Positions 3,083-26,326 of a stretch of 26,326 nt of DNA are shown here, in pieces. The position numbers and the translations under genes are program-made. A model generated the notes under the pieces. The model saw nothing but the letters and a program-made list of their open reading frames with translations. It was not told the DNA's origin and did no database searches. Origin of the DNA: a virus; the IMG/VR virus record IMGVR_UViG_3300036790_000819, positions 1 through 26,326 of that record, one strand, 5' to 3'. Position 1 is the first letter of the stretch, and each line of letters starts with the position of its first letter.

Positions 3083-3472
3083 ATGACTTCCTTCAAGTCC
3101 ATCTTCTCCCTTGCCGCCGTCTGCGGCGCGCTCGCCGGATGCACTTCCACCGGGCAGCTCACGCCAGTCGCAACGGCTGACATCACCGCCGCCTACAATA
3201 ACGTGTGCGCAGCGCTCCCGGCGCTCGGCCCCGTGTCGGCGACCATGAACGCCGACGCCAAGAACGCCTACGCACAGGCGCAAACAGTCTGCGCCGCGGG
3301 CGCGCCGACCAACGTCATCGCTGCAGGCGTCGATATTCTGGCGCTTGAGAATGCCCTTCTGCCCTATTTCAAGAAGGCCGTCGCGCTCGCCCCAGACCGA
3401 GCGAGCCCTGAGCGAAAACTCCAGGTGAAGTTCGGCGAGGTCCATCTCCACACGCCGAGCTTCGGCGAGTAA
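3083..3472 (+). CDS. Small phage-encoded lipoprotein, unknown function
   Basis: The 129-residue product starts with a charged n-region (MTSFK), a hydrophobic core and the lipobox LAGC, giving lipidation at C20 and membrane anchoring after Sec export. The mature part (about residues 21-110) is Ala-rich and predicted helical, with cysteines at NVCAALPA and QTVCAAGA. The C-terminus is charged. I do not recognise the family. The start is supported by GAGGAG a few bases upstream. Position is the oddity: it sits between protease and capsid genes, where scaffold or decoration proteins are usual, and is flanked by 268 and 207 non-coding bases, as an inserted accessory (moron) gene would be. Possible roles include superinfection exclusion or outer-membrane modification; an outer spanin is less likely because no inner spanin or lysis gene is nearby. 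Confidence 0.75.
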   Translation: MTSFKSIFSLAAVCGALAGCTSTGQLTPVATADITAAYNNVCAALPALGPVSATMNADAKNAYAQAQTVCAAGAPTNVIAAGVDILALENALLPYFKKAVALAPDRASPERKLQVKFGEVHLHTPSFGE

Positions 3473-6058: not shown

Positions 6059-6546
6059 TGTTCGCGCTCGAACTCGAGGGCCTCGAGGAAACAAAGGCCA
6101 GGCTCGAAGGCTATCCTGCCGCCTTGCAAGCGGCCCTCGGCGACAAGGCCGCCGAACTCGCCGGGGCGCTCGCCGACCTGGTCAAGAACGACAAGCTTGC
6201 TGGCGGCGTATTGAATTCGCGCTCCGGCGCGCTCAGCGATTCGATCGTCGCCAGCGTCTCTGCCGGCGCAGACGGCGTTATGGCCTCGATTGGCTCCGAA
6301 GGCGACGTTAAATATGCGGCGATCCAGGAATATGGCGGCAAAACGAGCGCGCATGAGATCCTGCCCGCGAAGGGCGACGTGCTCGCCTTTGTTATCGGCG
6401 ATGCGCAGCATTTTGCCCGAAGAGTCGAGCATCCAGGTTCGCTGATTCCCGAGCGATCCTATTTGCGTTCGGCGCTCGACGACATGAAAGACGAGATCCT
6501 CGCGTCGCTCGCCGACGCCGCGACCGAGGCATGGGAGGGCGCATGA
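6058..6546 (+). CDS. HK97 gp10-like neck/tail completion protein
   Basis: The 162-residue product matches the HK97-gp10-like family of head-tail joining or tail-completion proteins. Visible marks are VKYAAIQEYGGKTSAHEI (about residues 84-101), with the family's IQEYGG signature, and the HPGSLIPERSYLRSALDDM stretch (about 125-143) that is nearly invariant in these proteins. The N-terminal 60 residues are helical. The ATG overlaps the connector stop and its own stop overlaps the next ATG, so translation is probably coupled. Its position between connector and tail terminator equals that of the stopper gene in GTAs. Confidence 0.85.
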   Translation: MFALELEGLEETKARLEGYPAALQAALGDKAAELAGALADLVKNDKLAGGVLNSRSGALSDSIVASVSAGADGVMASIGSEGDVKYAAIQEYGGKTSAHEILPAKGDVLAFVIGDAQHFARRVEHPGSLIPERSYLRSALDDMKDEILASLADAATEAWEGA

Positions 6547-9791: not shown

Positions 9792-12316
9792 GCAACCCGA
9801 CTCTTCCCGGCGTCCATTTGCTGCCGTCGACAGGCGAGTTCGCCTACGACACCATTCCTTATTTCGGCTTCCAGCGCGGTGAGTACGGCCTAGACCAAGC
9901 GTTCATCATGAACTTCTTCGCTGGCGCGCCGAGCAACAAAACAGATTATTCCGTTTCTCTCGATCAGTTGCAGGCGCAGCACCCGGAATGCACGACGGTC
10001 TCGGTTGTGATCGCCTGGTTCTTTGATTCCGAGGACCCATCTGTCTGTCACGTCTATCCGACGAACAATTACATCGGCGGCGCCTTTAAGCAATGGGTCG
10101 CGGGCCCCGTCAACCCGTTCGGAGTTTGGGTCGACGATCACTGGATGGTTTCAGGCCTGACCGAATTGTCGGACGGACTCATCCCGCCGGCGATGCTGCC
10201 CGGGACGAGCAATTTCGTTTACGGCGGCACACCGAGCGACCAGAGCGTCGTTCGCTGTATCCGCGATCTCAAAAGCCGCGGCTTCAAAGTTATCTTCTAC
10301 CCGTTCCTGCTCGGGACCGGTCCAGGGTTCCCGTGGCGTGGCCGGATTACTTCGTCCGGCGACCTCAGCCAGACGGCGACGAACGACGTCGCGACCTTCA
10401 TGGGGCCAGCCGCGGTCGCTGACTTCACACCGGATTCGATCAATCTGACAGTCGCCTACTCCGGCTATCTGTTCGATTGGACCTATCGCCGGATGATTTT
10501 GCACTACGCGAACCTCTGCACGGTCGCCGGCGGCGTCAATCTGTTCGTGATCGGATCGGAAATGCGCGGGATGGAAGTCCTGCGGGGACCGGCCTGGACG
10601 AAGACTGGCGCAACGGACGGATCCGGCGCCGCGATCTGGGACTATCCGATGGTCGGGGCGCTCAACACGCTCGCCAACGACGTAAGGACCACGTTCGACA
10701 AGCTGGGCTTCGTGAAAAACGCGACGACGCTCGAAAACTTGATTTGCTACTCGGCCGACTGGTCGACCTGGATGGGCTGGCAGCATCCAGGAGAAGACGG
10801 ACAGTGGCCGCATCTTGACCAACTCTACGCTAACACGAACATCGACTTCGTTTCCTTTGACAACTACCTCCCGCTGACCGATTGGACGACCGGCGCCAGC
10901 GGCGGCCTTGACGGTTCCGAATGGATTGAGCCAGCCCCGACCGGGACGTGGCCGCCAACGCCGTCGATTATGAGCGGTCTTGGGCTCAGCGGGCCGCCGA
11001 CGATCTATTCGACGTCCTATCTCAAAGCCGGGATCGAGGGCGGCCAATATTTCAATTGGTTCTATAACAACAGCGACAATCGCGGCCGCGGCCTCGATCC
11101 GAATGGCACCGACCTGCAGGTGTCGTTGCCAGAAGGCGACCGGCTGGCTCAGGCTCGTAACCCGTATTTTACGGGCCAAGAGCTTCTCGCCAACAAGCAG
11201 TTGCGTTGGTTCTGGAACAACCCTCATCAGGCGGTTTACGCCACACCAGCTTCTGGCGGGGCATGGGTTCCGACGGGGCCGCACACCGAATGGGTGCCCA
11301 ATTCAAAATCGATCTTGATGCTGGAGTATGGCTTCGCCGCCTGCGATCGGTCGACGAATCAGCCGAACGTTTTTTTCGACCCAAAATCGACGGAGAGCTT
11401 CACCGCCTATTGGTCGATCTGGGACCCGGCCAACGAACTCGGTTATCTGCCGCGACGCGACGATACGATCCAAGCGCTGGCCCTCGAAGCGGTCTATGAA
11501 TACTGGAACGTGGACGGCGCCAACGAGAGCGTCGGCGGCTTGCCGATGCTCAACTGGAATTTCTGCTGCGTCTGGAATTGGGACGCGCGGCCGTTCCCGA
11601 CGTTTCCAGCCGAAAATCAGTCATGGGGCGACACCGGAAATTGGGAACAAGGCTTCTGGACTAACGGCCTGCGCGCCGTTCTTCCGCCGCCCCTCCCGAG
11701 CCCGCAACCGACGCCGGGCGCTTACGCAACCTTCCCGACCTTGACGACGCTCGCCTGGTCGACCCACCTGAGGCCAAAGTTTTCGACTCTGATCGCCACT
11801 CACGTCTCTGGGCGCGAGACGCGAGCCCAACACACCGCCAACCCCTATTTCGACCTGGAATTGACCTATGAGGTGCTGCGTTCGGCGCCCGCGGATGACG
11901 AATTGCAGGCGATTGCAGGGTTCTTCGAGCAGGCAAGCGGCGCGGATGAACCGTTCTGGGTCGGGCCTCCGGGCTTGAGCACGATTACGGGCCAAGCGAT
12001 CGGAACCGGTGACGCCGCGACGACTGTCTTTCCGCTCTTCGCGTCAATTGGCGGTTATAGCGGGCCGGTCTTTGGGACGTCGGGCGTCTCAGCCGTCTAT
12101 CTCGACGGCGTGTCGCAGCCGAGCGAATGGACGGTTTCAAGCGGATATCTACCTGCGATCACTTTCGCATCGGCGCCGGGCGACGGCGTCGTCATCACCG
12201 CCGACTTTGGCGTTCTCTGGCTCTGCCGCTTCGCCGAAGACGTCCAGGACTTCGAGGAGTTTATGACGATGCTTTGGGCGCTCCGGACGCTGCGGTTGTC
12301 GACGGTGAGACCGTGA
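9788..12316 (+). CDS. GTA-type TIM barrel fused to DUF2460 distal tail domain
   Basis: The 842-residue product has two parts. Residues about 1-625 match the GTA TIM-barrel (glycoside hydrolase-like) domain: DQSVVRCIRDLKSRGFKV, VIGSEMRGME with E258, YSADWSTWMGWQHPGEDG, DFVSFDNYLPLTDW and MLEYGFAACDRSTNQPNVF with E513. E258 and E513 are candidate catalytic acids, so it may cut cell-wall or surface polysaccharide during entry. A Pro-rich linker (about 632-646) leads to a DUF2460 domain (649-842, from FPTLTTLAWSTHLRPKFST), which is the distal-tail protein of GTAs. In GTAs the TIM barrel normally belongs to the large hub protein, so this fusion is unusual. Both ends overlap neighbours (ATGA at the start, GTGA at the end). 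Confidence 0.85.
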   Translation: MSNPTLPGVHLLPSTGEFAYDTIPYFGFQRGEYGLDQAFIMNFFAGAPSNKTDYSVSLDQLQAQHPECTTVSVVIAWFFDSEDPSVCHVYPTNNYIGGAFKQWVAGPVNPFGVWVDDHWMVSGLTELSDGLIPPAMLPGTSNFVYGGTPSDQSVVRCIRDLKSRGFKVIFYPFLLGTGPGFPWRGRITSSGDLSQTATNDVATFMGPAAVADFTPDSINLTVAYSGYLFDWTYRRMILHYANLCTVAGGVNLFVIGSEMRGMEVLRGPAWTKTGATDGSGAAIWDYPMVGALNTLANDVRTTFDKLGFVKNATTLENLICYSADWSTWMGWQHPGEDGQWPHLDQLYANTNIDFVSFDNYLPLTDWTTGASGGLDGSEWIEPAPTGTWPPTPSIMSGLGLSGPPTIYSTSYLKAGIEGGQYFNWFYNNSDNRGRGLDPNGTDLQVSLPEGDRLAQARNPYFTGQELLANKQLRWFWNNPHQAVYATPASGGAWVPTGPHTEWVPNSKSILMLEYGFAACDRSTNQPNVFFDPKSTESFTAYWSIWDPANELGYLPRRDDTIQALALEAVYEYWNVDGANESVGGLPMLNWNFCCVWNWDARPFPTFPAENQSWGDTGNWEQGFWTNGLRAVLPPPLPSPQPTPGAYATFPTLTTLAWSTHLRPKFSTLIATHVSGRETRAQHTANPYFDLELTYEVLRSAPADDELQAIAGFFEQASGADEPFWVGPPGLSTITGQAIGTGDAATTVFPLFASIGGYSGPVFGTSGVSAVYLDGVSQPSEWTVSSGYLPAITFASAPGDGVVITADFGVLWLCRFAEDVQDFEEFMTMLWALRTLRLSTVRP

Positions 12317-14229: not shown

Positions 14230-14669
14230 TGACGGATCTGGCGCGGGCGGCCGTCGTCACGGAGGCGCGGTCGTGGATCGGGACGCCCTACCATCATGCA
14301 GCCGACGTCAAGAATCAGGGCGTCGATTGCGCCATGTTGCTGGTGCGCATCTATTGCGACCTTGGCTTGCTTGAGCCGTTCGATCCTCGACCTTATACGC
14401 GCGACTGGTTCCTGCATCGGAACGAGGAACGCTACCTCGGTTTCCTTCTCGGGAGATCAAAAGAGGTTCGATCGCCGGGCCTTGGCGACATCGTTCTCTT
14501 CCGGATCGGACGGTGTTTTGCACACGCCGGTATCGCATCGCGGGTCGAACCGCTCAATATCATCCATGCCTTCGCTAATTCCGGACGCGTCGTTGAGGAC
14601 ATCGTCCACGCAAATCCGGAGCTGGCCTCGCGGCTCAAGAGTGCGAAATTCGCCAGCTACTGGGGCTGA
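14229..14669 (+). CDS. NlpC/P60 tail-tip peptidase (GTA gp14-like)
   Basis: The 146-residue product matches NlpC/P60 cysteine peptidases of phage tail tips, which cut peptidoglycan stem peptides during DNA entry. SWIGTPYHHAADVKNQGVDC carries the catalytic Cys at C34. FAHAGIA carries the catalytic His at H99, and H113 in NIIHAF is the likely third polar residue. GDIVLFRIG before the His is the usual strand. There is no signal peptide, as expected for a virion enzyme. It lies between DUF2163 and hub genes exactly as gp14 does in GTAs. The start overlaps the upstream stop and the next gene begins three bases after its own stop. Confidence 0.92.
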   Translation: MTDLARAAVVTEARSWIGTPYHHAADVKNQGVDCAMLLVRIYCDLGLLEPFDPRPYTRDWFLHRNEERYLGFLLGRSKEVRSPGLGDIVLFRIGRCFAHAGIASRVEPLNIIHAFANSGRVVEDIVHANPELASRLKSAKFASYWG

Positions 14670-14672
14670 CCA

Positions 14673-17243
14673 ATGGGCTTCCTACGCCGCAACGCTAACG
14701 CGAAACCGGATTATACGTCCCTTCAAATTCAAACAGCGACCTCGACGCTACCGATTCCAATCGTATGGGGGCGCAACAAGGTCGCTCCGAACGTCATCTG
14801 GTTCGCCAATTTTCGGGCTGTTCCCGGGAGCAGCGGAAAGGGAATCGGCGGGAAGGGCGGCGCGCTCGGCGGCGGCGCCGCTGGAAACAGCTACAGCTAC
14901 GCTGCCGACCTCATCATGGCGCTGTGCGAGGGACCAATCAACGGCACAGGATTCGTCTGGAAAGACCTTGGGGTCTATGTCCCACTCGAGCTCGGAATCG
15001 GCATCTTCAACGGGACAACGCCGCAAGACGCCTGGCCGTATCTGGCTGCGCTTTATCCGTACAACGCCCTTGCTTATCAGGGGACAGCGATCGCCTGGGC
15101 GGCAGGCTATAACCTTGGCGATTCGGCCTCAGTCGGCAACCACAACTTTGAGATTCTGGGGCCTCTCTCTGGTTCCTCGGGCGTCAACGATGACGCCGAC
15201 CCTGCACAAGTCATCAACGACTTCCTGACCAACGCCCAATATGGCGCTGGTTTCGATCCGGCCAGCATCGATGGCGGATCGCTGTTCACCAATCCGGATT
15301 CCTTCCAAGCCTATTGCAGGGCCATGGGCTACGCCTTTTCGCCGGTTCTCTCCAGCCAGGAGCAGGCCTCGAGCATCCTCACCCGCTGGCTGCAGATCTT
15401 TTCGACGGCAGCCGTATGGAGTGGGGGCCTGCTGAAGTTTATCCCTTACGGGGATACCGCGATTTCGTCAGGAGACGAAACGACCTACAGCACCCAGCTT
15501 TCTGTCCCGGTTCCGATTCCCGCCTCATCCGGTGAAGCGCTGCCGGCTCTCGTCACTGTCGCTCCCTCCGGGCAGTTCGTATCGGACGGCGGAGTGGTCT
15601 ACGCCTTCAACAACGGGCCATTGACTTTCATTGGCGCCAACATCCCGAGTTCTGCTGGCGAATATGGGATGGCGCCCGAGGGAACGTACATTTTCGGTCC
15701 CGCTGACCAGGGCAAGCCGGTCGTCATCACTTACACCACCAAGGCCGCCAGCAATTACACGCCGGACCTGACTCCACTCTTCAATCTGACGGACGCCGAT
15801 TTTATCAATGAGGGCGACCATAAGGACCCTGTCCAGGTCGAGCGTGTTGACATCTTTTCGCTTCCGACCATCCAGCGCGTAGAGGTCAGCTCGCGTTCGA
15901 ACCAATATTCGGCGGCGCCTGTCGAGGCGCGCGACCAGGCGATGATCGAACTCTTTGGCCCGCGCGTTGGTTCGACGATCCAAGCGCATGAGGTTTGCGA
16001 CGAATTTGTCATGGGCCCGAAGATCGCGCAGACGATCCTGCAGCGCGAGCTTTACGTCCGGACCAAGTTCACGTTCAGGCTGTCGTGGGAATATTGTTTG
16101 CTCGATCCCATGGACATCGTCACGCTCACCGACTCGAATCTCGGTTTGTCGGACTATCCGGTCCGCGTCATCGAGGTCGAGGAGGACGATAAGGGGATCC
16201 TTTCCTTTACCTGCGAGGAGCTCGTTTCCGGCGTCTCCAACCCGGCGCTCAATCCGAGCGCGGCGGCCAACGGTTTTCAGCCGAATTGGGGCGTGCCGGC
16301 GGTCCCGATCAATGCCCCGCTAATTTTCGAGCCGCCGCCCGGTTTGACTGGCGGCGTGGCGCAGGTGTGGATCGGCGCGTCGGGCATCAACGGCAATAGC
16401 GGCACGCAATGGGGCGGCGCGAACGTTTATATTTCCGTCGACAACGTCAGCTATTCGCAGATTGCTGTGCTCACGGCGCCGATACGCCAGGGCGTCTTGA
16501 CGGCTGACCTGCCAGCGGCCGCGGGATGGGACGGGGTCGACACGCTCTCGGTCAATCTCGGCGAGAGCAACGGTTCTCTCTCCGGCACAAGCCAATCCGG
16601 CGCGCAGGCGGGCGCAACGCTGTCGCTCATCGACAACGAGCTCATGGCCTACGAGGTCGCGGCGCTGACCGCCGGTAATTCGTACGATTTGACAGGGCTT
16701 GCGCGGGCGCTGAGCGGGTCGGTCGGCGTAGCGCATTCTTCCGGCGCGCAATTCTTCCGCATCGACGGTTCGGCCGTTCGGTATGACCTGCCGGCCAACT
16801 TCGTTGGCCGCACGCTCTATTTCAAATTTCAGAGCCTTAACGTGTTCGGCGGCGGAGCCGAGGATCTGTCGAGCGTCACCGCTTATTCTTTCACGCCGAC
16901 CGTGCCCTCGACCGTCGTCACGTCGCAGCCAGCCAACGCACCTCCAACGCCGCCAGCGAATCCCGTTGCGGTGCAGCTCTTGACCGGCTTTCCACTCGAT
17001 CTCGGCCCGATCGAAGGTACGGTCACGGTCGCTGACGACTTTGGCGCCGTGACCGGCAGCCTAGCCGACGTGATAGACCTTGGAGTTTTGGCAACCGTCT
17101 CGCAGCACCCAATTGCAGCGCAATTGCTGACAGGAACGCCAGTCGATCTGAGCCTCGTCACCGGTTTTGCCTCGGTGATCGACGATTTCGGCTCGGTCAA
17201 TGATTCGGTCGAGGACATCATCGACCTTGGAACCACACCCTAA
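14673..17243 (+). CDS. Tail hub/tip protein (GTA megatron-like, lacking TIM barrel)
   Basis: The 856-residue product has the central hub domain of GTA megatron proteins (Phage-tail_3 type): PIPIVWGRNKVAPNVIWFAN at about 29-48, DLIMALCEGPINGTG near 88, DPAQVINDFLTNAQYGAG, and later FRLSWEYCLLDPMDIVTLTD with VRVIEVEEDDKGILSFTCEE. A Gly-rich loop spans about 55-71. Residues 308-357 (VVYAFNNGPL to VITYTTK) are the recurrent beta domain also found in the connector and tube. After about residue 530 the protein has beta/FN3-like domains, then a Pro/Thr-rich linker and two 40-residue repeats. No TIM barrel is present; that domain is in the 9788 gene. Its role would be tail-tip closure and fibre attachment. 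Confidence 0.85.
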   Translation: MGFLRRNANAKPDYTSLQIQTATSTLPIPIVWGRNKVAPNVIWFANFRAVPGSSGKGIGGKGGALGGGAAGNSYSYAADLIMALCEGPINGTGFVWKDLGVYVPLELGIGIFNGTTPQDAWPYLAALYPYNALAYQGTAIAWAAGYNLGDSASVGNHNFEILGPLSGSSGVNDDADPAQVINDFLTNAQYGAGFDPASIDGGSLFTNPDSFQAYCRAMGYAFSPVLSSQEQASSILTRWLQIFSTAAVWSGGLLKFIPYGDTAISSGDETTYSTQLSVPVPIPASSGEALPALVTVAPSGQFVSDGGVVYAFNNGPLTFIGANIPSSAGEYGMAPEGTYIFGPADQGKPVVITYTTKAASNYTPDLTPLFNLTDADFINEGDHKDPVQVERVDIFSLPTIQRVEVSSRSNQYSAAPVEARDQAMIELFGPRVGSTIQAHEVCDEFVMGPKIAQTILQRELYVRTKFTFRLSWEYCLLDPMDIVTLTDSNLGLSDYPVRVIEVEEDDKGILSFTCEELVSGVSNPALNPSAAANGFQPNWGVPAVPINAPLIFEPPPGLTGGVAQVWIGASGINGNSGTQWGGANVYISVDNVSYSQIAVLTAPIRQGVLTADLPAAAGWDGVDTLSVNLGESNGSLSGTSQSGAQAGATLSLIDNELMAYEVAALTAGNSYDLTGLARALSGSVGVAHSSGAQFFRIDGSAVRYDLPANFVGRTLYFKFQSLNVFGGGAEDLSSVTAYSFTPTVPSTVVTSQPANAPPTPPANPVAVQLLTGFPLDLGPIEGTVTVADDFGAVTGSLADVIDLGVLATVSQHPIAAQLLTGTPVDLSLVTGFASVIDDFGSVNDSVEDIIDLGTTP
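16965..17231 (+). repeat. Tandem repeat at the C-terminus of the hub protein
   Basis: Two copies of about 40 residues lie at residues 765-804 and 814-853, a period of 49 residues (147 bases). Each begins with V/I-A-V/A-QLLTG-F/T-P-L/V-DL and ends with D-V/I-IDLG, around a DDFG core. Bases have drifted more than residues, so the repeat appears selected at protein level. It may serve as a docking tail for the fibre proteins that follow. Confidence 0.8.
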
Positions 17244-17252
17244 GAGGATCCC

Positions 17253-18107
17253 TTGAGCGAGCAGCTTCAACTCCGCCGCGGCACCTCGAGCCAGGTCGCC
17301 GCCTTCACTGGCGCCCAGGGCGAGACGGTGATCGACGCGACCAACAACCGCTTGGTCGTCAATGACGGCTCGACCGCCGGGGGCTGGCCCGCCGCGAAGC
17401 TATCCGAGGTCATTACGAATACGCGCACGGCAGTCAGTGACGCGGCCTACAGTGTCCTCGCCACTGACCGCATGATCGCCTACACTGCGCTCAGCGCCGC
17501 GCGAATCGTCAGCCTACTTGCTTCGTCCGCCTATCCGACCGGCACGCGCTTGGTCGTCGTCGACGAGACCGGCAACTGCTCGACCGTGAAGACGCTGACC
17601 ATCACCCCGAACGGCGCGGACATGATCGACGGCGCGCCCTCGGCCGTCGTCAACGTCCCTTACGGCTTTATCGGTCTTGAGAGCAACCAGGCCGGCGAGT
17701 GGACGATAGTCGATCAGGGTTTCATGCCGAGGCTCGCGAATATCGCCGCCGCAGCGCATGGCGCCAACATCCAAATCGGCGTGCTTGAGACACTGGTCAC
17801 GCTCTCCGGCTCATCGACCAACGCCTCAGTCCAAATCCCGCCCAATTGCATCGTGCTTTCCGTCGGCGCGCGGGTGGTGGCGCCGATTAGCGGCGCGACC
17901 TCCTACGAGGTCGGCGTTTCCGGCAACCTGTCGCAGTTTGGTTCGTCGCTATCGATCACGGCTGGGTCGACCAACTACGGACTCATCGGCCCGACGGCTT
18001 TTTATCCCGCGACGACGCTCATCATCACCGCGCAGGGCGGGAGCTTCTCGGCAGGTCAAGTGCGACTCTCGATTTCCTATCTGCTGGCCATTCCCTCCGC
18101 TGCCTGA
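17253..18107 (+). CDS. Tail fibre protein with Mtd-N-like start
   Basis: The 284-residue product opens with LQLRRGTSSQVAAFTGAQGE then NRLVVNDGSTAGGWPAAKL, which matches the N-terminal virion-attachment domain of major tropism determinant (Mtd)-like and other fibre proteins. The middle (about 60-165) is beta-rich with TLTITPNGADMIDG. The end (about 170-284) is a small beta domain with IPPNCIVLSVGARVV and VRLSISYL, common in phage fibre tips. The start is a TTG with AGAGGA a few bases upstream, in place right after the hub gene. It lacks the C-type-lectin tail of retroelement-diversified Mtd. It probably trimerises and contacts the host surface. Confidence 0.78.
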   Translation: MSEQLQLRRGTSSQVAAFTGAQGETVIDATNNRLVVNDGSTAGGWPAAKLSEVITNTRTAVSDAAYSVLATDRMIAYTALSAARIVSLLASSAYPTGTRLVVVDETGNCSTVKTLTITPNGADMIDGAPSAVVNVPYGFIGLESNQAGEWTIVDQGFMPRLANIAAAAHGANIQIGVLETLVTLSGSSTNASVQIPPNCIVLSVGARVVAPISGATSYEVGVSGNLSQFGSSLSITAGSTNYGLIGPTAFYPATTLIITAQGGSFSAGQVRLSISYLLAIPSAA

Positions 18108-18131
18108 TCTTCCTCTCGATCGAGGTTTCTC

Positions 18132-19277
18132 ATGACTCGTACACTCCTCGCCGCATTGTGGGCGATCGGCCTCGCATTGCCTGTCCAGGCGCAAACCTAT
18201 CAGGATTCGGGAGGCACCTATGTCCGCGGCATTGTGCCCATCCAGCCTGGAGTCGGGCCATTGTTCACATCAGCGAATCCAGGCAAAATTTCCGGTTCAT
18301 TTTCGGCTTCGCTGAGCGGCTTTCAGCCGACTCCGGCCTACGCGACGCTCTCCGTTGGAGTGTCCTCGAGCCGGGTCGCCCTTCCGAGTGGGACAGTTGT
18401 CGTCGTCTACAATACGGGCTCGAACGTGGCCTATGTGACGCTTGGCGGCTCCAGCGTCACGGCGACCACATCCAATGACGTGGTGCCCGCCGGCGGATGG
18501 ATGGCCTTCACTGTTGGCCCCAACACTTTTCTGGCCGCCATCGAGAGCGCAGGCGCGACAACACTTACGCTTTCCGGTGGTTCGGGACTACCGACCGGCG
18601 CGGGCGGCGGTGGCGGAGGCGGAGGTTCGGGCTCAAACGCCTCAGTCGGACCGACCGGCTCGAGCGCTCCCGGCGCCGCGACCTATAACGGCATGCTGGT
18701 CATCGGCGGCAACATGGTCGGGGCGTCAGGATCATCGTGGGGCTCGGCGCCGACAGGTCTCAACGTCCTCGGCGTCAACGCAGACGTTCTCTCGTCTGCG
18801 CTGCCAGCCGGCGCCGCCACTGCCTCAAACCAGGAAGTGACCCCGGCCGGCGCGAGCGCAACAAACGCGCAGGCCGTGCAGGGAGTCACGGGCGGCGTTC
18901 CGATGCCGACCATCGGGGCCAACACCGGCGGAAGCCTGACTACGATCATCCAAGCCGGCGTTTCAGTCCCAATTAATATCTCAACCGCAACTACGACGCA
19001 GCTCGTCGCGGCTATCGCCGGCAAAGCGATCTATGTCACCGCCTGGGACGTGATCGCAGCCGGGACCGGGAGTATCACGCTCGACTATGGGACCGGCTCG
19101 AGCTGCGGCACTGGCACGACACCGCTGACCGGCGCCTATGGCCTGGCTGCGCAATTTGGCATCGCCAAAGGCAACGGCCTGGGACCGGTACTTGTCGTGC
19201 CAGCCGGCAACGCGCTGTGCGCTTTGACGTCGGCCGCTGTGCAGATGAGCGGCAGCGTAAGCTATACGCAATTCTGA
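18132..19277 (+). CDS. Exported fibre-like protein with signal peptide
   Basis: The 381-residue product begins MTRTLLAALWAIGLALPVQA, a clear Sec signal peptide with cleavage expected after A20. The rest is Gly/Ser/Thr-rich and beta-predicted. A domain at about 50-135 precedes a poly-Gly linker (about 157-170), then SNQEVTPAGASATNAQAVQG, a stretch seen in phage fibre-associated proteins, and a C-terminal domain with two cysteines about 40 residues apart (SSCGTG, ALCALT) that could form a disulphide. GAGG precedes the ATG. A cleavable signal is odd for a virion protein, so the product may act in the periplasm or on the cell surface. It is otherwise similar in composition to tail fibres. Function unassigned. 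Confidence 0.65.
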   Translation: MTRTLLAALWAIGLALPVQAQTYQDSGGTYVRGIVPIQPGVGPLFTSANPGKISGSFSASLSGFQPTPAYATLSVGVSSSRVALPSGTVVVVYNTGSNVAYVTLGGSSVTATTSNDVVPAGGWMAFTVGPNTFLAAIESAGATTLTLSGGSGLPTGAGGGGGGGGSGSNASVGPTGSSAPGAATYNGMLVIGGNMVGASGSSWGSAPTGLNVLGVNADVLSSALPAGAATASNQEVTPAGASATNAQAVQGVTGGVPMPTIGANTGGSLTTIIQAGVSVPINISTATTTQLVAAIAGKAIYVTAWDVIAAGTGSITLDYGTGSSCGTGTTPLTGAYGLAAQFGIAKGNGLGPVLVVPAGNALCALTSAAVQMSGSVSYTQF

Positions 19278-19354
19278 GTGCTGGCCGGGGCTGGCCGCCG
19301 CAGATGCTCCACCACATCCGATCCCGAATTCCCCCTTCTCAGCTCAAGGCCACA

Positions 19355-22300
19355 ATGAAGCGCTTCCTTGCTTTCCTCACTGTGGCCCTCCTCGGGCCGA
19401 TCTGGCGGATGCCGGCCTGGGCGGGGGCGGGACTGACGACGATTGGCGTGGGCGGCATTCTGGCGGTCGTCGTCATACTCACTCCGCCCGCGATTACGCC
19501 GCAGCCTAGTCTCGCCTTCTCACAGTCGAACGCTTACGGCTATATCAACCAGGGCATGAGGCCCAACGGTGGGGCCGTCGGGTCGATGGAACTGCCGTCA
19601 ACCCCGGCCAAGTCGTTTGCACTTTATCATGAGCTAACGATGGGCGGCAGTTGGCTATTCGGGCAAAACAGCAGCTCGATCAATACGCTCGCAAAAACGA
19701 CTGGCGTCAGCGGCGGCCCGTCGACGATGCTACTTCAGGCGTCGGTTGGTGCTCCATGGTGGTTGCCGACTGTGGGCGGCCAACTCTCCAGTGGCGCCGC
19801 GTCGTTCCCTTCTCACGGATCTAATTATAACGGCGGAATTTATACGTGGACTGCGACAGATGGTTGCCCGACCGCAAATGGTGCGGGCGCGCGAGAGCCG
19901 CGTGGAGCCGTGATTCCGAACGGACCCGGAGCCGCTATCTATACGATAGACCCGGGTTTTCTTTGTGGCGAGAACGCGAGCGGCCTGGCGCCGCAAGTGG
20001 GTTTTGCCTCCATTCCCGGCATTGGCGCGAATCAGGCGACCGGAACAGCGGCGTCGCCCGCGCAGACAGCAACCACATGTGCCTCGAACACTCCGACGAG
20101 CACCCAATTTACTGTAACGGTCAATGTGGCCGTCGCCCATGGCGTCTATCCAGGACAGAGCTTCACGCTCGCGGGTTTCACGCCATCCAGCTACAACGAA
20201 GCTTACGCCGCTCTCCCAGGAACAAGCGGGATGACGCTTGTCGGGTCATACAGCAATGGGACCGGCACATGCCCCGGAACCGTGACGGCGGAGGGCAATG
20301 TCGGGGCCGGTTCTGGTGGCGCGATTACGGTCACTGCACCGTCAGTGACGGCGCCCTATAACCTGCAGACTGGCACCGGCATTACGTTCGAGCCGGGCCA
20401 GCGCGTTTGCGGCATGTTCGGCGAGTTCGGTGCTGATTCAGCGTTCCCCGGCGCGCAGTTCGCCAAATATACCGACATCACTGGAACCGATCTGCCCGGC
20501 TCCCCGGCCGTGAGCCCATGGCTCAATCAGGGTGCGGTCAATTTCACCGGCTACACGACCTTTGGGACGCAAGCCCCGATGTCTCCAGCACTGACCGTGA
20601 CGGCGATGAACAGCTACGCCGTCTCAAGCGTCAGCTTCAACGCGACAACCGGCTACGCGACTTTCGCGATGAGCCAGAATCCCGGCTTCATTGTTGGGTC
20701 CGAGTTCACCGTTTCCGGCGCCTCGACCTCGGGAGGCGGAAGCTTCAATCTGACCTACGTCGCGGTCGCTGGAACGTCAGGAACCACGATCGTTGGCAAC
20801 CCGCTCAGTGGACCAATCGGCCTGCCGCAGGCGTCATCCCTGACCGGGGCCTCGACGGGCTCTGCCGGTGCGATGGTTGGCGTCATCATGCCAGGCATGG
20901 CGGTGGTTGGGGCGCAGGGGGTTATTAGCCCCTTCGGGACATTCGGGTCTACCGGCGTGGGTGGCGTCGGCACCTATGGGCTTACATCGACTCCTGCGAC
21001 ATACACTTTCGCCGGGTCGATCCCAGCAAGCAGCACGACGCTGACACTTAATAACTCACCTGGTACGCCCCCGGTCGTAGGGCAGACGATCACCCTCGCA
21101 TCGCCTGCTTACACCGGGACGATTACCGCGATGCTGAGCGGCGCTGGAGGAACAGGGAGCACGTACACAGTCAGCCCAGCCAATGGCGCGACCGCGATCA
21201 CATCGGCCACCATAACGGCTAACGGGTTCATCGGGACATCAGGCTCACCGGTCAGCATCTATGCAGCGGAGACTTACTACTACACCGCCGCGCCCAGCGG
21301 CTCGGCTGCGGGTGGCGGTTCGGTCACAGCCAAAACGCAGGCCGCCATCGGCGATCTGATGACCGTGATCGGGTCATCGTCGGCGTCCACCACTGCCCTC
21401 ACCGGAAACAATGCGCAAGGTTGGGGCGGAAATATCGCGAATATGGGTATGTACCAGGGCGCGCCATTCCCGATGGATGCGACCGGACATCCGTCAAGTT
21501 CGGCCTTCACGAGTCTTTGCACCAAGACGACCGACTTTCAGTCTTTCGCTTCGGCCAACGGCGGCGCTTGGCGGTCACTCTACAAGTTCAACGACGGCGG
21601 CATCTGGGCTGATCACAGTGTCGCAGAATTTAAGGCCCACGCGGCTGGCACGGCGCTCACGATTGATTCGACGCAGACCGGATCAACATCTGCGCTCGCG
21701 GCAGGAACCGTGATTTCCGGGCCTGGCCTTTGTGCGAACAGCGTGTGCCCGACCATCGCAAGCGGATCCGGAAGCTCTTACGTTCTGAGCGGCAGCTTCA
21801 CGCTATCAAGTGAAGCCATGTCCGCAGGAAATTATCAGCCCGCAGCGCCGCTGGCTTCGCAGCAGGTCACCGCATCGATCGCGGGCTCGACGCTGACTGT
21901 AACCGCGGCGGTCGGCCCATCGACATCAACCTTCACGGGCGCATATAACGGCGCGCAGACGAGCGGCAACCTCACGACCAGTTCGCCGACAGGCACGATC
22001 GCGACCGGCCAGTGCATCTGGGATGGCGGGGTCCATATCAGCCCGCAATACCCGCTTTGCATCACGGCCGGGGCGTCATCGCCATGGACCGTCAACGGAG
22101 GGACTGCATCGTTCAACTATTACCCCGCGATCTCTTCGGAAACGATGTACGCGACGAATGTTGCGATCGTTCCAGGCACATATGTCATGGGCGCCGGCAT
22201 CACGACTCCGGTCTTGGTCAAGAGCTACGGGACGCTGACCCCTTGCGCGACGACCGGCTTTCCGATGTGCGGCACCTATGTGATCGACAATCCGGGCAGC

Positions 22301-25300
22301 CTGTCGGTCAGTTCTGAGACGATGACCCTATCGGGCGTCACCGAGGGAGGCGCCATCGCTCCTGGCGCCGCGCTCACAGTCCAGAGTCCGGGGTCCGGCT
22401 CGACCTATCCGGTCACGAACTGGAGCGCCATGACTGGCGTCATGCCCTTCAACGGCAAGTATAACACAGGCCTCCTCGGAGGGACGCCTTCCCACATTCA
22501 GGCTCAGGTCTCGGCGACACCGGGTGGCGCGCCGCTTAGCGGCTGCGCACCATGCGCGTGGACCAACATATCAAGCGAGACGATCTCTGGTGGTGCATGG
22601 TCCGGCAGCGTCGTCAGTATCCCGGCCGGCGGCCCCTACTGGGTTTCCTTGCGCGCTGCGAACGGAACTGCTTACGCCACGCTGCCGAACGCCGTCTTCG
22701 TTGGCGTCAACGTCGCCGGATTTGGCGAAGGCAACGCCGTCGACCAGCTCATCGGGACCGGATTCACCTACAGCCAGACCTATTGGCAGGGTTTCTCGAC
22801 AATGGTTGGGTGGCAAGCCGCCGGCTCTCCTGCGCCGAACAACGTTTCCGCTGCCTATATCCCTGGACCTTCGTATCTCAACAACTGGGCGCCAGCCCAT
22901 CCGGCTCAACTGTCGGTCGACCGATACGGAGTCGCCCCAAGCGCTTCTGCATCGCTGAATGACGGCGCGGCGTGGCAATCGGCAAACGCGAGTTCTCTTA
23001 TGGGCGGAGCGCCTGTTGGCCTCCTCAATATGTATAAGAATGGCAGTGGCGGTCAGAACTGGTTTTATAGCAACGTCACCCAGACGCAGACCATCGGCAT
23101 CGGCGACGGCTCGACGTCAACCGTCTCGTCGGGCGCCGGTTTCGGCGGCAGCGTGGCGGGTCTATCGTCAACGGTGACGGGGAGCATCAGCGGCAACACG
23201 ATGACGATCCCTGCGCCGGGGCCAGGGTCTTACTATTACATCAACATCGGCAATGGGGTGAGTTGCGGATCGTGCGCGGCCGGAACCGTCATCACCAATA
23301 CCAGCGGCACGACGCCCGGGAGCGCGGGAACGTACAGCGTCTCGCCTAGCCAGACGGTGGCGTCGACCACGCTGACGATCAGGCACAACAACCTCGGCTT
23401 CAACGGCGCCTGGGGCTTTGGCGCGACGATCACCGGGACGGTGTCTAGCGGAGTGCTGACCGTCAGTGGCGTCCAGAACGGCGTCATGGCTCCGCTCCTG
23501 ATTGCATCGGACGGGACGAACAGCGCCACCCTCACCGCATGCCTGACGAACTGCAGCCTCATGGGCAATGGTCAGGCAACCTCCACATGGCAACTGAGCA
23601 GCGGCGCGCTTGATGGCGACACGAGCACGACGTCTTTCTTGGTCGCGCCGTCTGGTGGGGCGCCATGGCCAACGCTTCAGATAGAACCCGCATCAATCCC
23701 GATTTATTTTGCGGGGCCGACGTCGATCGGCGGCGAGCCTCTGATCCAGATTGGAACCTTTCAGGTGCTCGTCAATGGGACGGTCGTCTGTCAGGACAGC
23801 GGCACCTTCGCCTATAACGTCCAGGTCGGCAATTGCGTCGGGGCAGGTGTCTCGAGCGCGTGGGTGAATTACGTCACTGGCGGCTTTTCGGTCTCCTTTG
23901 CGAGTCCGCCCGCGAGCAACGCCACGATTACCGCCAAGTGGACCAATCTTATGTCCACGAACAGTTCGAATGGCGATGAGCAGATCGACTGGGTTGGCAA
24001 CACATCACCGACGAGCGGCGCGCTCGCCTCAGTGGCGGCGAAGACCGGCGGGATCAATGCCTATCTCAACGGCCAACAATGCGGTGGCGGCTGGCCCGAC
24101 GGTATGCTCAGCGCAGCGCGTCAGTTGAACTATTTTTTCTCCACGAGGATGGCGGCGCTTCACGGCGGCATGACGGGTCAACCCGAACTCACTACCGGCC
24201 AGTGGCGCGGCATGGGAACCCAGGCGGTGTTGGGCTACTTCTCCTTCGCCGCCAATCTGGAATGCGAAGAATACGACGAGGATGCCGGACGGAACTCGGT
24301 TTTCTCCGCGACGATCGGGAGCGCGAGCGGGTCTGGGCCGTGGACATCTGTGATGACGTTGACCGCCCCTGCGACGGGCCCGATGTGGGAAGGCGAGGTC
24401 ATCGAGTGCAATCCTTATAGTGCGGCTTGCGTGCTCCCTCCTGGGACGGAACTTGTCTCGCTCGCCAGCGGCGCCTGGGGTGCGAGCGGATCGACTTACA
24501 ACGTGACCTCGGACCAGAACTCGTTCGCCGCGGCGCACACCGCCGGAACGATCGCACTCCACAATGCCATGTGGTATCCGCCGGGGACCGGGGCCTATGT
24601 CGGGCCTTACGTCGATCTCTCGATGCAGAACGGCTATGGCGGAGGCTATGCCGTCGAGACTGGTGGTGGCATGAATGGCGGCCTGCGCTATGGCCACAGG
24701 GCTGGCGTCGAGATCGGCGCGGCTCTATCCGGACATCCAGAGCACGGTTCCGACCCTACGCTCGACCGGACTTCGTTCACAGGTTGCGATGCGGCGGCGG
24801 TGTCTCAGGGTGTCTCGCCGTGCTTTGATATCGGCAACACCTATGCAGCGTCGCACGCAGCGACATGGAGCGGCTCGACGTTCACGATCTCAGGAGGCTT
24901 GAGTGCTGGAGCACGTCCATTCGTCCCTGGTATGTCTCTTGGTTGTTCCGGCTGTAACCCTGGCCTAGTGGCTCTCTCTGTTAGCCTTCCTCCTACGCAG
25001 TCTTCTGCAACCGGAGCAGGGCAGATCGGTCAGACCTTGACCGTCACCGCGAGCGGCGCAATCGGCGGTGGCGGATCAGGAACGCTGACCGGCGGCTGCT
25101 CCGGGACATCCGGCGTCGGCTCGAACTGCATAGACTTCAAGCTCGACATCAACACGACGGGAACCTACGGGAAGACGGCGGCGCTGGTTACTTGCGGCGT
25201 GAATAATCTCGAAGGAACCAATACCAATCTGCCGACAGCCGGACCTTACGTCTTCCCGAACGGGACATGCGTTCCGTCAGGTGTCGGCTCGCTTGCCCGA

Positions 25301-26326
25301 GGTTTCCGTATCGGTTCGCAGCAGATCATGGACACGCAAACGAACGCTCTCGGCTCGGCTTATGATTTCGGCATGGACCCCGGCGTCTATGTGGCCAACG
25401 GGCCGGCCGGCTTGATCGTCCAGAACGAGGCGTTCACCTGCAATATCGTGGGCGCGACCATCGTCCAGTGCGTCAAGGGACCGACCTATTTGCACGGCGT
25501 ATTTTCCAGCATAGGGCAATGGGCGTCTGGATCGACCTTCGCGCAATATGGCGATCCGAACAATGCCTTCAGCTTCATGACCGGCATGGTCGGTTATCCT
25601 GGGGGGCAGTCTTTCCCGTTCACCGCTGGATCAGGCTATACGACGCCGTCGGGTGTGACGGACTTCGTGACCGGCGCCGTTTGCGCGCTCAATACGACGG
25701 CCGGGACGACGCCGCAGGCTCCGGCTATGGGTTTCAACCTTTCTGGCGGGTCGATCGTCGACACCTACCTGACCGTCGTTGGCTCAAGTCTCTACTCGAC
25801 ATGCAGCTTCCCTATCAGCTTCACGTTTACCGGCGTGATCAGCGGCTACAACGGATCGCTGCATACGGCCAACCTGGCGGTGACAGGGATCACCAGCGGG
25901 ACAGGCCCTGGAACCATCGTGCCGGGCGAGATCCTGACCGGGGCGAGCTTCACCGGCTATGCGGTGGTCAAGACCGGCCCGTTCAATGGCCTAAACGGAA
26001 CCTATGTCATCGACACGACGAACAGCAATATCACGGGAAGCCTGGCGTCGGAGACCGTGACGTCTGGCCCGACAGGCGGTTCTGGCGCCGCGATCTCGAC
26101 CCCTCCGCTAGGCTGGAGCACTGGAGTATTCACGCCCGAAGGAATCGGCGTCACTCAGACCAATGACGCCGACAACAATCTCACCGGAACCGAACTCTAT
26201 GACAACTCCGGTGTGAGCGGGAACCCGCTTGCTGGCAAGTTCAACCTTCCGACTGGCGGGCTCGAGTCTCCAGGCTTGCCGGTCCATCCGTTTGGGATGC
26301 GGCGCGGCGCTGGCGTTAGCGGCTAA
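19355..26326 (+). CDS. Giant exported fibre/adhesin-like protein, 2323 residues
   Basis: The N-terminus is MKRFLAFLTVALLG with an AWA-G site near residue 23, followed by a second hydrophobic run (about 26-44, TTIGVGGILAVVVILTPP). It therefore looks Sec-exported, and either cleaved or membrane-anchored. The body is Gly/Ser/Thr-rich beta sequence with at least ten degenerate modules of 60-90 residues and about 36 cysteines, many close together (CGSC, CAPC, CANSVC). A stretch with GFGEGNA (about 1122-1128), APVGLLNMYKNGSGGQNW (about 1219-1236) and QPELTTGQWRGMGTQAVLG (1609-1627) resembles an SGNH esterase lacking catalytic residues. The ATG at 19355 was chosen because the hydrophobic signal starts there and AAGG lies upstream; the same frame is open back to 19217. 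The stop is the last base of the window. Confidence 0.75.
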   Translation: MKRFLAFLTVALLGPIWRMPAWAGAGLTTIGVGGILAVVVILTPPAITPQPSLAFSQSNAYGYINQGMRPNGGAVGSMELPSTPAKSFALYHELTMGGSWLFGQNSSSINTLAKTTGVSGGPSTMLLQASVGAPWWLPTVGGQLSSGAASFPSHGSNYNGGIYTWTATDGCPTANGAGAREPRGAVIPNGPGAAIYTIDPGFLCGENASGLAPQVGFASIPGIGANQATGTAASPAQTATTCASNTPTSTQFTVTVNVAVAHGVYPGQSFTLAGFTPSSYNEAYAALPGTSGMTLVGSYSNGTGTCPGTVTAEGNVGAGSGGAITVTAPSVTAPYNLQTGTGITFEPGQRVCGMFGEFGADSAFPGAQFAKYTDITGTDLPGSPAVSPWLNQGAVNFTGYTTFGTQAPMSPALTVTAMNSYAVSSVSFNATTGYATFAMSQNPGFIVGSEFTVSGASTSGGGSFNLTYVAVAGTSGTTIVGNPLSGPIGLPQASSLTGASTGSAGAMVGVIMPGMAVVGAQGVISPFGTFGSTGVGGVGTYGLTSTPATYTFAGSIPASSTTLTLNNSPGTPPVVGQTITLASPAYTGTITAMLSGAGGTGSTYTVSPANGATAITSATITANGFIGTSGSPVSIYAAETYYYTAAPSGSAAGGGSVTAKTQAAIGDLMTVIGSSSASTTALTGNNAQGWGGNIANMGMYQGAPFPMDATGHPSSSAFTSLCTKTTDFQSFASANGGAWRSLYKFNDGGIWADHSVAEFKAHAAGTALTIDSTQTGSTSALAAGTVISGPGLCANSVCPTIASGSGSSYVLSGSFTLSSEAMSAGNYQPAAPLASQQVTASIAGSTLTVTAAVGPSTSTFTGAYNGAQTSGNLTTSSPTGTIATGQCIWDGGVHISPQYPLCITAGASSPWTVNGGTASFNYYPAISSETMYATNVAIVPGTYVMGAGITTPVLVKSYGTLTPCATTGFPMCGTYVIDNPGSLSVSSETMTLSGVTEGGAIAPGAALTVQSPGSGSTYPVTNWSAMTGVMPFNGKYNTGLLGGTPSHIQAQVSATPGGAPLSGCAPCAWTNISSETISGGAWSGSVVSIPAGGPYWVSLRAANGTAYATLPNAVFVGVNVAGFGEGNAVDQLIGTGFTYSQTYWQGFSTMVGWQAAGSPAPNNVSAAYIPGPSYLNNWAPAHPAQLSVDRYGVAPSASASLNDGAAWQSANASSLMGGAPVGLLNMYKNGSGGQNWFYSNVTQTQTIGIGDGSTSTVSSGAGFGGSVAGLSSTVTGSISGNTMTIPAPGPGSYYYINIGNGVSCGSCAAGTVITNTSGTTPGSAGTYSVSPSQTVASTTLTIRHNNLGFNGAWGFGATITGTVSSGVLTVSGVQNGVMAPLLIASDGTNSATLTACLTNCSLMGNGQATSTWQLSSGALDGDTSTTSFLVAPSGGAPWPTLQIEPASIPIYFAGPTSIGGEPLIQIGTFQVLVNGTVVCQDSGTFAYNVQVGNCVGAGVSSAWVNYVTGGFSVSFASPPASNATITAKWTNLMSTNSSNGDEQIDWVGNTSPTSGALASVAAKTGGINAYLNGQQCGGGWPDGMLSAARQLNYFFSTRMAALHGGMTGQPELTTGQWRGMGTQAVLGYFSFAANLECEEYDEDAGRNSVFSATIGSASGSGPWTSVMTLTAPATGPMWEGEVIECNPYSAACVLPPGTELVSLASGAWGASGSTYNVTSDQNSFAAAHTAGTIALHNAMWYPPGTGAYVGPYVDLSMQNGYGGGYAVETGGGMNGGLRYGHRAGVEIGAALSGHPEHGSDPTLDRTSFTGCDAAAVSQGVSPCFDIGNTYAASHAATWSGSTFTISGGLSAGARPFVPGMSLGCSGCNPGLVALSVSLPPTQSSATGAGQIGQTLTVTASGAIGGGGSGTLTGGCSGTSGVGSNCIDFKLDINTTGTYGKTAALVTCGVNNLEGTNTNLPTAGPYVFPNGTCVPSGVGSLARGFRIGSQQIMDTQTNALGSAYDFGMDPGVYVANGPAGLIVQNEAFTCNIVGATIVQCVKGPTYLHGVFSSIGQWASGSTFAQYGDPNNAFSFMTGMVGYPGGQSFPFTAGSGYTTPSGVTDFVTGAVCALNTTAGTTPQAPAMGFNLSGGSIVDTYLTVVGSSLYSTCSFPISFTFTGVISGYNGSLHTANLAVTGITSGTGPGTIVPGEILTGASFTGYAVVKTGPFNGLNGTYVIDTTNSNITGSLASETVTSGPTGGSGAAISTPPLGWSTGVFTPEGIGVTQTNDADNNLTGTELYDNSGVSGNPLAGKFNLPTGGLESPGLPVHPFGMRRGAGVSG
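20080..26070 (+). repeat. Degenerate beta modules within the giant protein
   Basis: Recurring modules of about 60-90 residues share a pattern: an S/T-I-S/A-G-x-T-L/M-T-V/I opening, a PG/VG-x-x-I/F-x-G turn, a GTY-V/S or STYTV strand and an ending such as SSETM or ASTTLTI. Clear copies lie near 20080-20330, 20580-20850, 21000-21225, 21640-21830, 21860-22135, 22140-22335, 23170-23385, 23410-23600, 24300-24550, 24860-25080 and 25835-26070. They are divergent, so DNA-level repeats are not obvious. Confidence 0.6.

Follow-up and report, generated by a model that had tools for sequence, protein, structure and literature searches.

P1 and P2, neighbouring genes in the tail-fibre locus of an alphaproteobacterial soil phage, encode proteins that probably cross the inner membrane rather than being finished in the cytoplasm as normal tail fibres are, since predicted signals and disulfide-like cysteine pairs are conserved across many phages, both related and unrelated. 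Export is well supported; for the final site we infer, with a probability of roughly 0.5, that these tail-fibre-locus proteins are rerouted via the periplasm and oxidised there, and that on release by lysis they probably join virions. In the textbook view tailed phages complete their particles inside the cytoplasm, and a widespread exported fibre-locus family would depart from that teaching, meaning either that virion parts can be built in the periplasm and attached at lysis or that large extracellular proteins are exported late in infection.

The window, the whole stretch of 26,326 bases that was analysed, is a virus record whose first base is that of a portal gene ATG and whose last is that of the P2 stop codon, and so has probably been trimmed, at gene boundaries, out of a larger contig. 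Pfam and PHROG matches 5′ of P1 and P2 identify portal, protease, capsid and tape-measure genes and then a tail-tip set (GTA_TIM plus DUF2460, Gp84/BR0599, NlpC-like, Phage-tail_3/Rcc01698_C and an Mtd_N protein) of a kind typical of Rhizobiales/GTA-like siphophages. The gene for the Mtd_N-domain tail protein (17253-18107, plus strand, as are P1, P2 and all their parts; 284 residues without a signal; Pfam PF18454, E 1.2e-9) is directly 5′ of P1 and marks the fibre locus; a gene of this kind also precedes P1 homologues in prophage-type loci, for instance L066, L081 and L085. P1 and P2, encoded on that same strand, come straight after the Phage-tail_3 and Mtd_N genes and are preceded by gaps of 24 and 77 bases respectively, and a consensus scan of 17000-19700, a weak test, gave no sigma-70-like promoter match; expression in a quiet lysogen is therefore unlikely.

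P1 (18132-19277, 381 residues from ATG 18132, with the ribosome-binding site GAGG at 18122-18125) begins MTRTLLAALWAIGLALPVQA↓QTYQDS, the arrow being the predicted cut, VQA↓QTY, after a 20-residue signal peptide (18132-18191) that reads as a textbook Sec signal. The cut was placed with a signal rule and by comparison of relatives. The rule, which takes a basic n-region, an uncharged h-region and a small-x-small cleavage site, is crude and weak alone, 25% of composition-shuffled N-termini passing it too. It is passed by 17 of 18 P1-like proteins and by 8 of 14 that are P2-like, window P2 included, and among the other window genes tested only by two ORFs, one terminator-like at 6531 and the other lipoprotein-like at 3083. 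The latter (MTSFKSIFSLAAVCGALAG↓C, 3083-3472) is between the protease and capsid genes. The relatives of P1, sixteen from IMG/VR and one Hyphomicrobiales MAG, all open, where the start is readable, with a short basic region, followed by a hydrophobic one and by [AV]x[AG]↓QTY(Q/M)DS. Identity to the window is 30-75% in the signal region and 60-84% in the first 130 mature residues, and in 14 of the 16 relatives compared the signal is the more divergent of the two while the cut-site pattern [AV]x[AG]↓Q is retained. Real signal peptides evolve in this way, the letters changing and the cut-site pattern staying, and the predicted export of P1 is very probable.

The mature part of P1 is fibre-like in its makeup, the protein as a whole having 40% Gly+Ser+Thr and 3.4% charged residues. 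Residues 68-150 (18333-18581) form a predicted beta-sandwich domain, delimited by AlphaFold2, viral Foldseek matches and an hhalign alignment to the L066 homologue described below, in which it is also present; Foldseek likens it to phage proteins of about 100 residues. Only there does pLDDT reach about 63-88, the mean for P1 being 39. A poly-glycine linker (18600-18635, limits approximate) follows, and then a C-terminal domain (18921-19274) with Cys325 and Cys363 invariant in an alignment of 13 members. In three relatives (L012, L013 and L016) the C-terminal half is replaced, yet the first 130 mature residues are still 84% identical, a replacement beside a kept N-terminal part that can be likened to that of receptor-binding proteins. 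Neither P1 nor P2 has a Pfam match even at E 1, or a PHROG match.

P2 (19355-26326) is a giant fibre-like protein with 39% Gly+Ser+Thr. The places and lengths that an earlier note had given for the two reading frames, 381 and 2323 residues, proved right, as did its count of about 36 cysteines in the larger, the number being exactly 36 (1.55%). The open frame extends back to a GTG at 19217, AAGG is at 19346-19349 before ATG 19355, and five relatives (L003, L005, L006, L007 and L008) have the same MKRF start with a stop codon 0-7 codons 5′ of it, from which ATG 19355 is taken to be the start. Searches with the P2 protein alone gave no relatives, and these were reached via synteny with P1, P2 relatives being directly 3′ of P1 in almost every locus that extends far enough to show it. 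Those of L007, L009 and L010 are complete, L024 has a further complete one, and comparison of relatives gives a conserved C-terminus, GLPxxPFGxxxGxxVSG (26240-26326, start approximate), that runs to the stop at the window's last base. In distant L017 a different signal-bearing gene occupies the place of P2; a signal-bearing protein at 11271-12269 of that 115-kb contig, adjoining the P1 relative, matches Gly_rich_2 at E 2.7e-4, below the Pfam cut-off.

The P2 N-terminus has two hydrophobic segments, both present in the window: a signal-like one of 23 residues (19355-19423, predicted cut AWA↓GAG from the signal rule and relatives) and a second at residues 26-42 (19430-19480, from hydrophobicity), by reason of which a membrane anchor is possible. 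By the signal rule the first is a good signal in the window, L008, L010, L013, L018, L024 and the Ssp-JY42 analogue, is barely above threshold in L006 and is broken by charged residues in L002-L005, L007 and L009. The second is strong (KD mean 1.9-2.2) where the first is weak, and weak (KD mean 1.0-1.1) in L010, L018 and Ssp-JY42. Membrane targeting appears to be kept across all P2 forms, and cleavage is uncertain; export or membrane insertion of P2 is likely. The earlier proposal that both proteins start with Sec-type signals thus stands for P1 and is less clean for P2, given its 8 of 14 and its second segment.

The interior of P2 gives few clues to activity. AlphaFold2 models of P1 and of the middle part of L009 P2 (mean pLDDT 44 for the latter) contain a beta-sandwich and an Ig-like domain only, and the matches from a PDB fold search with them were for the most part antibody-type domains, with E above 0.001 in every case. 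By eye, GxGN/GQ-like and HP/GGRR motifs in the middle part permit an SGNH/sialate O-acetylesterase-like hydrolase reading, but pLDDT is about 20 over that candidate region, which has no Pfam match and no credible PDB match, and comparison of P2 with the L066 downstream protein gave no hhalign support for it. Pfam and PDB searches identified no enzyme domain in P2, and none of the tests made supports an enzymatic role.

The stronger indication of oxidative folding comes from how the cysteines of P2 evolve. When the window and nine relatives are aligned (L013, L016 and L018 were left out, the last having internal stops under the P1 coordinates used), closely paired cysteines are mostly both present or both absent: positions with a single one occur at 0.14 of expectation, versus 0.63-1.02 for every other residue type. 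A J-like tail protein encoded nearby, without a signal, gave 1.2 for 18 homologues, and the GTA_TIM protein, with only three cysteine pairs, gave 0.52. In window P2 alone the close pairing that had been pointed out is marginal (10 gaps of at most 12 residues, 6.0 expected, p = 0.046), so that across relatives, and not in spacing within one protein, that claim finds its strong evidence. By itself, cysteine content has no diagnostic value, as gp84-like and NlpC-like genes without a signal reach 1.9-2.1%. Cysteines gained and lost in pairs indicate disulfides, which when stable mean that a protein folds away from the reducing cytoplasm; disulfide formation by P2 is judged highly likely. Together with the conserved signals, this pattern lends support to the export and oxidative folding that the sequence had been thought to imply.

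The C-terminal domain of P1 recurs in Ssp-JY42, L024, L046-L051 and L067 (in genome G869, where the tail genes are the same), and the 13 members sampled, which come from dissimilar phages, without exception carry a signal peptide and this pair of cysteines. The isolate Ssp-JY42 (L019 / L052, PP438432.1) encodes in its fibre region a P1-like protein followed by a signal-bearing protein of 786 residues with 10 cysteines, and 7 of the 81 genes examined in that phage pass the signal rule. Although labelled a Synechococcus phage, it encodes, besides a XerC integrase, a putative cell-cycle regulator, GcrA, which suggests an alphaproteobacterial host. Runs of signal-bearing genes are present in this region of L027, L046, L047 and L048; in L048 the P1-domain gene adjoins one whose product bears a signal and resembles a beta-helix tailspike (PHROG tail spike, E 5e-11), and the signal-bearing neighbours in other phages include further large, cysteine-rich proteins. 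By gene types read from sequence, P1-domain proteins are also beside capsid-type genes (L049 2953-3830, L050 2209-4502) and terminase- or portal-type genes (L024 10894-11298).

Homologues without a signal are present at the same locus. In the G984 prophage (L066, on a 4.5-Mb contig) one comes right after the Mtd_N-like gene and begins MQWKNPDGSITTGVVIEDG. It aligns to P1 residues 23-199 (hhalign E 1.6e-22), and the pairing of its residue 3 with P1 residue 23 puts its start at Q21, the predicted +1 residue of mature P1. L068 matches P1 in the linker region only (E 7.7e-9). The same start, MQWKNPDG, recurs in the viral contigs L072, L073, L079, L080, L084 and L085. These signal-less proteins have few cysteines (two in the 766 residues of L066, none in the 122-241 residues of L079, L084 and L085), and at several of the loci a cysteine-richer, signal-bearing protein comes next, with 12 in 790 residues in L079 and 24 in 1334 in L085. 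It appears, then, that the signal has been placed in front of a domain which in the tail locus otherwise begins without one, and it is mainly for this reason that a virion role after release is preferred to host display. Attachment to virions on release is the best fit among the fates that the earlier note had listed, though on present grounds such attachment would be a tentative proposal.

Among known systems, lambda Lom is a signal-bearing outer-membrane protein of a temperate phage, its gene being between those for tail spike and tail fibre (PMC12309495). P1 and P2 are like it in being signal-bearing and encoded in a tail region, but Lom is a small outer-membrane beta-barrel whereas they are fibre-like, without a barrel match, and P2 has 2323 residues. 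With the tailspikes and tail fibres of siphophages and podophages they share locus position, a Gly/Ser/Thr-rich beta architecture and a replaced C-terminal part; known tail fibres, to our knowledge, fold in the cytoplasm and are without signals, whereas P1 and P2 have Sec-type signals and paired cysteines. PblA and PblB of Streptococcus mitis phage SM1 are tail-type proteins acting off the virion as adhesins, and so share a role outside it; they are not known to have Sec signals such as P1 and P2 carry, and reach the surface of their Gram-positive host through lysis. The N-terminal domain of Mtd-type receptor-binding proteins is in the upstream gene (17253-18107) and in neither P1 nor P2. We know of no described precedent for a tailed phage adding Sec-exported fibres, and a narrow search of a partial open library turned up no account of tail fibres exported by Sec. 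PMC12946066 was set aside, its gp38 having no signal.

From what the sequences themselves contain, namely gene order, conserved signals, pairwise cysteine evolution and signal-less homologues at the same locus, we infer a route in which P1 and P2, as late proteins of the tail-fibre locus, would pass through the inner membrane via Sec. Once in the periplasm, P1 would lose its signal, P2 would lose its own or keep it as an anchor, and the paired cysteines would form disulfides. At lysis the mature proteins would meet virions already completed in the cytoplasm and most likely dock on the tail tip via the N-terminal region that the signal-less homologues use, to act as extracellular fibres binding host-surface glycans. 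The pair would work like an exported fibre or adhesin module, a description that carries no membership in a named family. More speculative is a two-compartment assembly, in which a group of alphaproteobacterial phages makes fibre parts in the periplasm with the host's Sec and disulfide machinery and adds them after lysis to particles built in the cytoplasm. Against the virion reading are the weak P2 signal (6 of 14), which may be an anchor, and the lack of a Pfam or PHROG tail family match for either protein; a tail-tip role also fits poorly with the head-type genes beside P1-domain genes in L024, L049 and L050.

Those head-type neighbours would be less awkward if P1 and P2 were free secreted factors, exported and released at lysis but staying off virions, where they would bind or cut surrounding glycans or, as a variant, serve as decoys blocking receptors on debris or sibling cells. 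The signals and paired cysteines suit this too, as do the beta-helix tailspike-like protein of L048 and the large cysteine-rich proteins among signal-bearing neighbours elsewhere; yet the signal-less homologue found where P1 would be points to a component of the virion, P2 has no identified enzyme domain, and free action is considered rather unlikely. If the hydrophobic N-termini were instead structural parts of ordinary cytoplasmic virion proteins, the ambiguous P2 N-terminus in 6 of 14 relatives, the fibre-like composition and the tail-locus position would be accommodated, but not a signal kept with changing sequence and constant cut site, nor a homologue starting exactly at that cut, nor the paired cysteine evolution that is absent from the signal-less J-like neighbour; absence of export is very improbable.

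Display on the host cell, with masking of receptors or adhesion, had also been put forward, and in lysogens P1 and P2 might stay on the cell surface to exclude phages or aid adhesion in the manner of Lom. Export, the Lom precedent (PMC12309495) and the possible inner-membrane anchor of P2 would fit, but neither protein has an outer-membrane barrel or an autotransporter C-terminal translocator barrel by Pfam (the former even at E 1), or a lipobox with Cys at +1 in the window sequences, and the genes belong to the run of tail genes and show no match to a promoter consensus. Carriers among sequenced genomes are also few, 1 of 397 in the order, 1 of 385 in the class (for the C-terminal domain) and 5 of 298 in the family, the last mostly distant matches; absence from the genomes sampled says little on lysogeny, but these counts do not speak for a trait that lysogens commonly have. 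The display proposal therefore fares poorly and is quite unlikely, and virion attachment after release from the periplasm is the preferred reading.

Further genes near these fibre loci merit mention. In the longer P2 relatives a set of small membrane proteins is encoded 3′ of P2 (L010 18395-20009, L007 17899-19199, L009 18369-19955), one being weakly MotA/ExbB-like (E 0.35) and the next having, by eye, an ExbD-like membrane segment followed by a DVDLWV-type domain, and this could be a lysis or energised-envelope set. In L085 an outer-membrane beta-barrel gene (14527-15597, OMP_b-brl, E 7.6e-8), of the phage or of flanking host DNA, is 3′ of the fibre genes, and genes with a signal similar to its own, ...A↓ADLPS, are near the fibre locus of both L066 and L083.
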